Assembly: GCF_003387475.1 (NCBI RefSeq)
Contig: NZ_QUNO01000010.1
Location: 248,001-312,000, forward strand
From: Kutzneria buriramensis
GTDB taxonomy: Bacteria; Actinomycetota; Actinomycetes; Mycobacteriales; Pseudonocardiaceae
Direction of reading: 5' to 3'
Length of the DNA: 64,000 nucleotides
Below the pieces are notes generated by a model. The model ran no database searches and was not told the origin of the DNA. It saw nothing but the letters and a program-made list of their open reading frames with translations. Numbering within the stretch: position 1 is the stretch's first letter; each line of letters starts with the position of its first letter. Shown one piece after another: positions 29,968 to 32,361 of the stretch. The translations under genes and the position numbers were made by a program.

Positions 29968-30453
29968 TCAGCGGCGCGGCGCCGGCCCCGCCTGGTCGGT
30001 CAGCATGCGCAGGCCGCTGACCAGGCCGCCGGCCAGGTCGCCCTCCTTGAAGGAGGCCACCATGCTCATCACGGCCAGCTTGCAGCCGCGGTCGGCCAGC
30101 CGGCGGTGCGACTCCTCGCCGGTCACGATCTCGACGGCGCGCTGCCCCGGCGACACGGCGATCAGCACCGCGAGCGTGGGCCGCGGCGTCTGCGCATGCA
30201 GCTCCTCGGCCGCCTTGCGGGTGTCGTCCCCGTCCAGCTCGCCCAGGTAGACGCTGAAGTCGAGGCCGGTCTCCCGGCTGGACAGGGTCAGCGCCTCGTC
30301 GAGCTGCGCCAGCTCCGAGGAGCGGAACGGCAGGCTCGGAGGGCTGGGCTTCTGCTCGATGGCGGCCGAGACCCGGCCGTCGGCCATCAGCGCCTCGCCG
30401 TAGGCGAGCTCCGAGTCCTCGGCGCGCCGCTGCACGATCTCACCAGTTGCCAC
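29968..30453 (-). CDS. DUF5130 / TPM-like protein (Rv2468c position)
   Basis: The protein has 161 residues from the GTG at 30453 (VATGEIVQRRAEDS). The core SSRETGLDFSVYLGEL, DTRKAAEELHAQ, TLAVLIAVSPGQRAVEIVTG and RGCKLAVMSMVASFKEGDLAGG resembles the TPM/DUF5130 fold of small actinobacterial proteins; positions 130-150 include the conserved SFKEGD. No catalytic function is known. It overlaps the upstream small membrane-protein gene by 14 bp and is presumably co-translated with it. Placement between pepN and the HNH gene matches M. tuberculosis Rv2468c. Confidence 0.85.
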   Translation of the reverse strand: MATGEIVQRRAEDSELAYGEALMADGRVSAAIEQKPSPPSLPFRSSELAQLDEALTLSSRETGLDFSVYLGELDGDDTRKAAEELHAQTPRPTLAVLIAVSPGQRAVEIVTGEESHRRLADRGCKLAVMSMVASFKEGDLAGGLVSGLRMLTDQAGPAPRR

Positions 30454-30703
30454 GGGCACCTCCTCGTGCGGTCGGCGCGGGCTCGCCGGCCTCGCCCTGC
30501 TCCAGCGCCAGGTGCGCGGAGGGGGCGTGGGCACCGATGCCCGCGGGGTTGGCGGTCCACCACACTGGCGCGTAGCCCCACTCCTGGCCTGCCTGGTACC
30601 GGGGGGTACGCGCGAACTTCGGCCACAGCGTCAGCAGCGCGATCACCCCGTACACACACAGCGGGATCAGCGCGAAGACGAGGAGGGTGTCCACGACGTT
30701 CAC
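30440..30703 (-). CDS. Small single-pass membrane protein, 87 residues
   Basis: The GTG start at 30703 gives MNVVDTLLVFALIPLCVYGV, a transmembrane helix of about residues 5-26. A basic/aromatic cytoplasmic part (WPKFARTPRYQAGQEWGYAP, VWWTANPAG) and a disordered Ala/Gly/Pro tail follow. Its last 14 bp overlap the DUF5130 gene. The PVWW-ANP motif and the overlap suggest a conserved actinobacterial pair, but the function is unknown to me. Confidence 0.8.
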   Translation of the reverse strand: MNVVDTLLVFALIPLCVYGVIALLTLWPKFARTPRYQAGQEWGYAPVWWTANPAGIGAHAPSAHLALEQGEAGEPAPTARGGARGNW

Positions 30704-31021
30704 GGGGCTTTACGGTAGCCGAGGCCGTCGCACGGCGCGTCACCGGCCGTCCTGGTCTGGGGCGATGCGCACGCCCGAACGGGCACGATCCGGGGCGAAG
30801 TGACCACACCGTTGCCGGCGACGCGGCGTGAAAGTGATCATCAGCACACACTCTTGCGGTGTAACGCGCTGCGCCGAACGGACCCCGGGTTGGCAACGCG
30901 AATGCCGCCGGTTTGGCGGCTTGTCCTGACCGGCGAATCAAGATTAGCTTTCACCTATACGGGTCTTGCGGAGCAAGGGCCTTGCCTGAACGCCACCCCG
31001 AACCTCCCAGGAGGGCACGCC
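30704..31021. promoter_or_regulatory. 318-bp leader and possible promoter of the GIRVN-repeat gene
   Basis: No gene is visible here. A GCCGCC-ggttt-GGCGGC hairpin (30904-30920) is followed by TTGTCC (30921-30926) and TAGCTT (30945-30950), an 18-bp-spaced sigma70-like pair. A perfect AGGAGGG ribosome site (31009-31015) precedes the ATG at 31022 by 6 nt. The promoter elements are tentative; the ribosome site is strong. Confidence 0.45.
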
Positions 31022-31426
31022 ATGTACACGCCGAGCCTCCCCACCACGGTCGCCGCTGTCACCCGATCGAGTGAAGAGATGCGCACCGTGCTCACTCTCG
31101 TGTCCGGCATCCGGGTGAACAAGAGCACCCTTGTCCAGCGTGGCATTCGGGTGAATGGTCTCGACGCCGGAATCCGCGTCAACCGCGACGGTGTCCGGGT
31201 TAACCGGGACGGCATCCGCGTGAACCGCTCCGCGGACCGAGCGGGCATCCGAGTCAACCGCGACGGCATCCGAGTCAACCGGGCCGCCGAGAGCCGCGAC
31301 GGCATCCGAGTCAACAGGGACGGCATCCGCGTCAACCGCGCGGCCGAGAGCCGCGACGGCATCCGCGTGAACCGGGACGGGATCCGCGTCAACCGCGACG
31401 GCATCAGGGTCAACCGCGCGGCCTGA
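31022..31426 (+). CDS. Repeat peptide with twelve G-I/V-R-V-N units (possible multi-core precursor or repeat structural protein)
   Basis: The protein has 134 residues from the ATG at 31022. Residues 1-28 (MYTPSLPTTVAAVTRSSEEM, then RTVLTLVS) look like a leader. The rest is twelve copies of GIRVN (one GVRVN), mostly as the heptad DGIRVNR with spacers such as AAESR, SADRA, KSTLVQR and GLDA. Codons inside the repeat differ synonymously between copies (CGG/CGC/CGA/AGG for Arg, GTG/GTC/GTT for Val, AAC/AAT for Asn) while the peptide is constant, so selection acts on the protein. The tail is very basic, with no cysteine and no transmembrane helix after the leader. No RiPP maturase is adjacent. It could be a multi-core precursor, a beta-type repeat fibre or a nucleic-acid-binding peptide; the function is unknown. 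Confidence 0.85.
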   Translation: MYTPSLPTTVAAVTRSSEEMRTVLTLVSGIRVNKSTLVQRGIRVNGLDAGIRVNRDGVRVNRDGIRVNRSADRAGIRVNRDGIRVNRAAESRDGIRVNRDGIRVNRAAESRDGIRVNRDGIRVNRDGIRVNRAA

Positions 31427-31448
31427 CCACCACACAGACCACACAACG

Positions 31449-31483
31449 ACGGCGGCCCGGGCAGGAAACGCCCGAACCGCCGT
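31449..31483. terminator. Hairpin terminator after the GIRVN-repeat gene
   Basis: ACGGCGG (31449-31455) plus CGGGC (31458-31462) pair with GCCCG (31470-31474) plus CCGCCGT (31477-31483), with a 2x2 internal loop and a 7-nt apical loop. It ends 42 bp before the convergent HNH gene stop and may serve both genes. Confidence 0.7.
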
Positions 31484-31525
31484 TCGTTCATCGAGAACTA
31501 CCCGATCACCTGGACGAGCTCGGGC

Positions 31526-32209
31526 TCACGCCGCGGGCTCGCCCAGGTATGGCAGCCATTGGGGGTCGGCGTCGGCCACGCCGGCGAGCAGCCGCCAGTG
31601 CGGCCCTCGCGGCGCGGTCGGCACGACCAGCAGCCTCCATCCGAGTTCGGACAGCATCTTGTCGGCCTTGCGGTGGTTGCACTTGGCGCAGCAGGCCACA
31701 CAGTTGGTCCAGCTGTGGGCACCCCCGCGCGAGCGCGGCACGACGTGATCGATAGTCTCTGCCCGCCCGCCGCAGTACGCGCAGCGGTAGCGGTCCCGGT
31801 GCATCAGCCCGGCCCTGGTCAGCGGCACCCGGCCGCGATAGGGGACACGGACGTAGCTGGACAGCCGGATCACCGAGGGCACCACGACGCTGGCAGTGGA
31901 GGAATGCAGGATCAGGCCGGCCGAGTCACCGTGCACGACCTCGGCCTTGCCGCAGACCACCAGCACCACGGCCCGCCGCAGCGGTAACGCCGTCAGCGGC
32001 TCGAACGTGGCATTGAGCAGGAGCACCCGCCTCCGCCCCCAACTGGGCCCACCCGGGGCGCCGCGCGCCCGGTCCTGGCCGACCCGGTCCGGTTCCACGC
32101 TGGATGCGTGGCCGCTGGACGTGGCCTGGGCAGGAATTTGAGACAGGGGGACCCGCGGCGCCAGCCCCGATCTGGGGGCGCCGATCGGAGTGGGTTGTCG
32201 GTCGGGCAC
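31526..32209 (-). CDS. HNH endonuclease domain protein (Rv2469c position)
   Basis: The protein has 227 residues from the GTG at 32209, preceded by GGAGGTGG; a frame extends to 32281. About 65 disordered N-terminal residues precede a beta-rich domain (RVLLLNATFEPLTALPLRRA, VPSVIRLSSYVRVPYRGRVP). The HNH core RCAYCGGRAETIDHVVPRSR...NCVACCAKCNHRKADK follows, with two CxxC zinc-binding pairs and the catalytic His of the DHVVPRS box. The protein matches the widely conserved actinobacterial HNH protein, whose biological role is unproven. The position within the Rv2464c-Rv2478c order supports orthology. Confidence 0.92.
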   Translation of the reverse strand: MPDRQPTPIGAPRSGLAPRVPLSQIPAQATSSGHASSVEPDRVGQDRARGAPGGPSWGRRRVLLLNATFEPLTALPLRRAVVLVVCGKAEVVHGDSAGLILHSSTASVVVPSVIRLSSYVRVPYRGRVPLTRAGLMHRDRYRCAYCGGRAETIDHVVPRSRGGAHSWTNCVACCAKCNHRKADKMLSELGWRLLVVPTAPRGPHWRLLAGVADADPQWLPYLGEPAA

Positions 32210-32361
32210 GCGACCACCTCCACCGGTGCAGGCATAGTCGACCACACTTGACCCGCTCAACGCACGTGTGATGCATGACATGTCATGAACCCGTCGTGAA
32301 ATCCATGGTGAACCGTGGCCTAACGGAGATGGTTTTCAACTGGGCGGCTACCCTTCGGCGA

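Follow-up and report, generated by a model that had tools for sequence, protein, structure and literature searches.

An unnamed pentapeptide-array gene found in most sampled genera of the Pseudonocardiaceae

Why would a bacterium keep a small gene that repeats a single pentapeptide a dozen times? Such a gene lies in the window, the 64,000-nucleotide stretch of Kutzneria buriramensis DNA analysed here (contig NZ_QUNO01000010.1), and its features are collected in Table 1. An earlier note on this DNA described a ribosome site AGGAGGG, a leader-like start of about 28 residues, twelve copies of GIRVN or GVRVN, and four Arg, three Val and two Asn codon types, all of which we recovered. Eleven units are GIRVN and one is GVRVN; the Arg codons of the units include CGC5/CGG3/CGA3/AGG1, Val at unit position 4 is encoded by GTC7/GTG4/GTT1 and Asn by AAC11/AAT1. 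Unit spacings range from 7 to 12, the array not being hexameric, and the protein ends in NRAA. The hairpin that the note had given to the gene as its own terminator is present, but it lies between two convergent genes and need not belong to the array gene.

Table 1. Positions of the array gene and associated features in the window
Feature	Positions	Strand	Basis or detail
Putative -35 region CTTGTC	30920..30925	+	CTTG 28-30 nt before site in 111/147 aligned loci; -35 role putative
Putative -10 region TAGCTT	30945..30950	+	TAnnnT just before conserved site
Conserved single-copy 22-nt site TTTCACCTATACGGGTCTTGCG	30949..30970	+	overlaps putative transcription start (about 30957)
Ribosome-binding site AGGAGGG	31009..31015	+	six bases 5' of ATG
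Array gene	31022..31426	+	ATG 31022, stop 31424-31426, 134 aa; orthologues found by protein search
N-terminal leader, 28 residues	31022..31105	+	sequence reading
Twelve GIRVN/GVRVN units and spacers	31106..31414	+	first unit from 31106, last from 31400
C-terminal tail RAA	31415..31423	+	orthologues often end (D/E)(F/Y/L)(A/S/T)LAA, ssrA-tag-like
Hairpin separating the convergent genes, probably a bidirectional terminator	31445..31488	.	-28.2 kcal/mol, z -3.6
HNH-endonuclease-family gene, constant convergent neighbour	31526..32281	-	Pfam and orthologous loci

The neighbours in the window, as identified by Pfam, are an Rv2466c-like nitroreductase, an M1 aminopeptidase (PepN), DUF5130, the HNH gene, an S9 peptidase, an MscS channel and a truncated-type globin, an order that we take to resemble Mycobacterium tuberculosis Rv2466c-Rv2470. 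These neighbours, and an HNH gene convergent with the array in 145 of 148 distinct orthologues, support the earlier note in its reading of a conserved gene neighbourhood. Of the three orthologues without an adjacent HNH gene, two are truncated where the locus ends and the third (L195, Saccharomonospora saliphila) has lost the gene from this place; in L195 no HNH gene was detected beside the array although the locus extends 3.5 kb downstream and includes the globin gene. A small frame with a hydrophobic start (30440-30703, minus strand, 87 aa) lies on the 5' side of the array gene and is transcribed away from it; it has no Pfam match and is kept in 112 of the 148 loci, a count limited by the shortness of many loci.

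Kutzneria is a member of the Pseudonocardiaceae by taxonomy. In a search of 60 genomes with the window protein, four of six same-genus genomes gave strong matches to orthologues, with E values of 6e-43 or better, and three divergent arrays came from other genera; the remaining two Kutzneria genomes carry shorter GVRVN forms, reached via the upstream site. Array orthologues were found in Kutzneria, Amycolatopsis, Lentzea, Saccharopolyspora, Saccharothrix and other genera. The orthologue set comprised loci with CACCT....GG, at most five mismatches to the site and an ATG or GTG frame with at least two units 40-140 nt on, and merging identical proteins left 148 distinct orthologues; 18 site-bearing loci lacking a frame were dropped, nine from unrelated bacterial or archaeal records and the other nine mostly cut by the locus end. 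Of 120 family genomes searched with a profile independent of the site, 84 have arrays, and 78 of these 84 also carry the site with at most three mismatches. When the HNH locus was read in 11 genomes of the family in which the site had not been matched, seven had no array and four had a variant (L097, L098, L100 and the mini form L103). The mini form (2489-2605) encodes 31 residues, with four GVRIN units after the first seven and a degenerate site approximately 130 nt upstream. In other families of the order the array was absent from the HNH locus in all nine genomes. The presence of orthologues at the same place in many genera puts the array gene far beyond chance and rules out the adverse case named by the earlier note, that no related genome would hold a homologue. 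Judged from these sequence comparisons, it is a vertically kept, single-place family gene in most genera sampled.

A scan of named genomes for the site gave at least 118 stretches, and among the 80 matches listed, 68 were from Pseudonocardiaceae genera or their close kin (Actinopolyspora and Halopolyspora), one was titled Nocardia sp. and 11 bore the names of unrelated groups. One of these 11, titled Candidatus Melainabacteria (L187), is probably a mislabelled bin from the window's family. Kutzneria viridogrisea (G004, e.g. L017) gave 37 weak array matches, apparently to another dispersed repeat in a chance frame. A candidate at the end of an IMG/VR contig (L361 3001-3489) was rejected as a low-complexity RVTRGT/RGN repeat with only a superficial likeness to the arrays.

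The 22-nt site upstream of the gene, with the pattern TTTCACCT[GA]T[AC][CT]GG.[CT]CTTGC across the family, was identified in 216 of 297 family genomes (at most three mismatches), representing 37 of 46 genera, and is almost always single-copy. In a sample of 394 genomes from the class, three carry it with at most two mismatches, and two of the three belong to the family. The invariance of its CACCT and GG is partly by construction because the locus filter required them; fairer evidence comes from the TTT and CTTG of the site, which lie outside the filter and are 0.99-1.00 conserved between flanks of low information, and from the comparison with the profile search (78/84). The other CTTG, the one 28-30 nt ahead of the site, and the TAGCTT-like bases adjoining the site suggest a housekeeping promoter, with transcription probably starting at the purine of TTTCACCT[R]T.

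Across the family the unit follows the consensus [GS][TVI]R[VI][TSNHE], each genome having its own version. By protein, the 148 orthologues are of type GTRVT (76), SVRIT (30), GVRIS (25), GIRVN (5), GVRVT (3) and GVRIH (3), with GVRVN (2), GTRIT (2), GVRIE (1) and GVRIN (1) being rarer. Among units defined by the pattern [GSD][TVI]R[VI][TSNHEV], which leaves degenerate units uncounted, 2415 of 2428 are identical to the commonest unit of their own protein, and 137 of the 148 proteins have only one such unit. Copy number ranges from 2 to 60 per protein (median 14), and the leader is 25 residues long, the mode, in 62 orthologues. Unit spacing differs between lineages, from 6 to 9 and beyond; a spacing of six, i.e., a one-residue spacer, is the commonest (1084 of 2280 gaps).

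The earlier note had argued from codon changes that the repeats are old and selected as protein, and this proved to hold well beyond the window. Pairwise comparison of the window units gave pS 0.52 and pN 0.022, the latter biased low because the units were picked by the consensus pattern. A test set free of this bias was provided by 49 orthologues in which the entire array stays in a single six-residue phase; of their 671 hexamers, 3 depart from the consensus. In these the core median was pS 0.581 and pN 0.011, with pS exceeding pN in 49 of 49, as against spacer values of pS 0.681 and pN 0.588; thus the cores are held, and the spacers and codons drift. The ten unit types need 13 changes on an HNH tree (a quick FastTree of 141 of the 148 loci), against a minimum of nine, so that by this reconstruction whole arrays change type together and rarely. 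Such whole-array switching, with a single kind of unit in most proteins, is what would follow if the unit is read by one partner or through homotypic stacking.

A separate protein of 76 residues with a signal-like start and three to five SVRIT units (L338 2696-2923, minus strand; L341-L344), presumably exported, was found in four of 249 genomes searched, all of one genus (g27, taken as Kibdelosporangium). The main arrays are of type GTRVT in three of these four genomes, the three that were read. In L338 it lies beside frames named by eye as beta-lactamase-like, response-regulator, histidine-kinase and VanX-like. A stop or a frameshift interrupts the reading frame in some copies.

The C-termini of the orthologues are far from those expected by composition. 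LAA ends 60 and AA ends 88 of the 148, compared with expectations of about 0.02% and 0.7%, respectively, and the commonest ends are DFSLAA, DFALAA, DYTLAA and DYALAA. These resemble the tmRNA tags predicted by ARAGORN in relatives: 30 of 30 end in LAA, and in 29 of them F or Y stands two positions ahead of this ending. A C-terminal Ala-Ala, one criterion for a ClpXP C-degron, is carried by the window protein (RAA) and by the same 88 orthologues, which are predicted substrates; the other 60 proteins, including most GVRIS types, lack it, so the putative degron is not universal. According to one report, the C-terminal Ala-Ala of Streptomyces sigma-AntA is needed for degradation by ClpXP, replacement with Asp-Asp blocks degradation, and 67 of 71 sigma-AntA orthologues end in Ala-Ala (PMC7142297). 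Another describes degradation of GFP-ssrA, ClgR and PopR by Streptomyces ClpXP1P2 (PMC9765437). The upstream site, the ssrA-like tail of orthologues and the joint, lineage-specific change of units were all passed over by the earlier note and came to light here.

One-residue spacers in 42 distinct strict-hexamer runs repeat at a lag of three units (0.473 vs 0.348, z 5.9) and at lag 6 (z 3.0), but not at lag 2 (z -7.6), all z values being inflated by related genomes since the runs are non-independent. Third codon positions in these runs have no lag-3 repeat (z 1.2), which argues that a three-unit, 18-residue order is kept at the protein level in strict-hexamer arrays. A coil of the left-handed beta-helix likewise comprises 18 residues, or three hexads. 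The period is absent from the SVRIT and GVRIS types.

The explanation we favour, if tentatively, is that the gene encodes an array protein, cytosolic and short-lived, whose beta-strand motifs stack, bind one co-evolving partner, or do both. A short leader would be followed by 2-60 copies of a beta-strand pentapeptide joined by variable spacers, and the strands would stack or be presented many at a time to a partner recognizing the exact pentapeptide of the lineage. A dedicated regulator at the 22-nt site over the putative transcription start may set when the protein is made, and ClpXP would remove it in the many orthologues ending in AA or LAA. The product would then be a transient multivalent scaffold or titrant with a capacity set by copy number. 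Several observations sit less easily with this short-lived array: some arrays have just two or three units, too few for a rod alone; the L098 form has units without a recognizable site; and AlphaFold2 models are weak, with pLDDT 59 and pTM 0.42 for the window protein and pLDDT 62 and pTM 0.56 (five-model means down to 39.5) for the Amycolatopsis rifamycinica orthologue, although both place short strands on most units between disordered ends.

It is possible, if unlikely, that the protein is instead a multicopy peptide precursor, its leader and identical cores being cut, perhaps by Clp or another peptidase, into penta- or hexapeptides that serve as a lineage-specific signal or, when modified, a product. 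Yeast alpha-factor precursors and multi-core RiPPs have a leader, many identical cores, and variable spacers and copy number. A precursor would explain the leader of fixed length in many lineages, the identical, lineage-specific cores and the copy number as well as a short-lived array does, and the free spacers fit it too. The listed leaders, however, have no secretion signal obvious to the eye, and no maturation or export gene was found among the constant neighbours, which by Pfam and in the orthologous loci are housekeeping genes. Moreover, the predominant one-residue spacers leave little room for a cut site, and the ssrA-like tails suggest disposal.

A rigid beta-helical rod, structural or akin to a DNA mimic, is unlikely; hexamer arrays would form a left-handed beta-helix and octamer-like arrays a trimeric beta-spike. 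A profile of 19 GTRVT arrays gave 16 weak matches among solved structures at E up to 10 (best E 0.0033), all of which we take to be left-handed beta-helices, and eight of ten matches to a single array were, again weakly, of this fold. The GVRIS profile had one match, a VgrG spike (E 0.02), two of eight SVRIT matches were VgrG-type (E 0.014 and 0.072), two of five matches to the window protein were fibre proteins, and Foldseek with the window model placed VgrG and the phi92 spike at the top (E 1.1-2.7). None of the structure matches is significant, however, and a reversed-array control drew at least three beta-helix proteins among 11 weak matches, so part of the hexamer-type signal is composition and period. 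For the window protein the top match is to a fucosyltransferase (E 0.0032), no hexapeptide-repeat model was found for it (Pfam up to E 1) or for two GTRVT/GVRVT orthologues (NCBIfam), and the lineage-to-lineage variation in unit spacing also speaks against a rod. Among the three guesses of the earlier note, beta-structure is nevertheless the best supported, if weakly, by the strand models, the spacer period and the weak beta-helix matches.

In another reading, which we consider quite unlikely, the array is a ClpXP-fed store holding a pentapeptide signal particular to the lineage (GTRVT, SVRIT, GVRIS, GIRVN, and others), which a co-evolving receptor would read. With its synthesis regulated at the conserved site, the array would be cut in the cytosol, starting at the ssrA-like tail, to release dozens of peptide copies; we know of no such peptide-signalling route described in bacteria. 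An arginine-rich protein binding nucleic acid or another polyanion, also among the earlier guesses, is very unlikely. GTRVT types do have a net charge of +11 to +21 per 100 residues, but 24 of the 30 orthologues of the SVRIT type carry a negative net charge while sharing the site, place and unit plan, which disfavours a general cationic nucleic-acid role. It is highly improbable that what counts is the RNA, or the process of translating it, and not the protein: the start-site region is conserved and the tail would dispose of the product, but codons drift to pS 0.58 with residues kept, the next downstream gene is convergent, and no Rfam model reached its threshold across 30700-31560, where the best hit (E 0.041) lies on the opposite strand.

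The earlier statement that no known family fits still stands, with no model over cut-off in Pfam for the window protein, no NCBIfam model for that protein or for two of its orthologues, and no convincing family in PHROGs or PADLOC, whose anti-phage defence models it did not match. A literature search on the unit strings and topic returned nothing on the array gene, within a reach that left out most subscription papers and all preprints. The gene appears to be new as a protein family and architecture, and its mechanism may prove to be of a known kind. It is an unnamed gene carried by most sampled genera of a family whose antibiotic producers are well known, and it comes with its own tools: the 22-nt site is bait for a putative regulator and the uniform pentapeptide bait for a putative partner, the ssrA-like tail predicts a half-life changeable by one substitution, and the whole-array unit switches between lineages form a natural series in which co-variation could point to that partner.

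Several known systems can be set beside the array protein. Pentapeptide-repeat proteins such as MfpA and Qnr are built of units with the consensus A(D/N)LxX, which are absent from the array, and the Pfam Pentapeptide model does not match the window protein. Left-handed beta-helix proteins (DapD, GlmU, and gamma carbonic anhydrases) have six-residue units with a beta-branched or aliphatic pair, as in the array, and share the 18-residue period with strict-hexamer arrays as well as weak profile matches. In contrast, the array has a central Arg in every unit, near-identical units and no catalytic part, and the window protein departs further in its wider spacings and want of a Pfam match over cut-off. 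Trimeric beta-spikes (VgrG and the phi92 spike) bear a weak, non-significant sequence or model resemblance to the SVRIT, GVRIS and GIRVN types, but the array gene has no hub or injection genes beside it. Yeast alpha-factor and multi-core RiPPs are like it in leader, identical cores and variable spacers and copy number, and differ from it in secretion signal (judged by eye), maturation gene (among constant neighbours) and the ssrA-like tail. Sigma-AntA, ClgR and PopR, which are transcription regulators, and other actinobacterial ClpXP substrates (PMC7142297, PMC9765437) have the same C-terminal Ala-Ala as 88 of the 148 array proteins, the predicted substrates.
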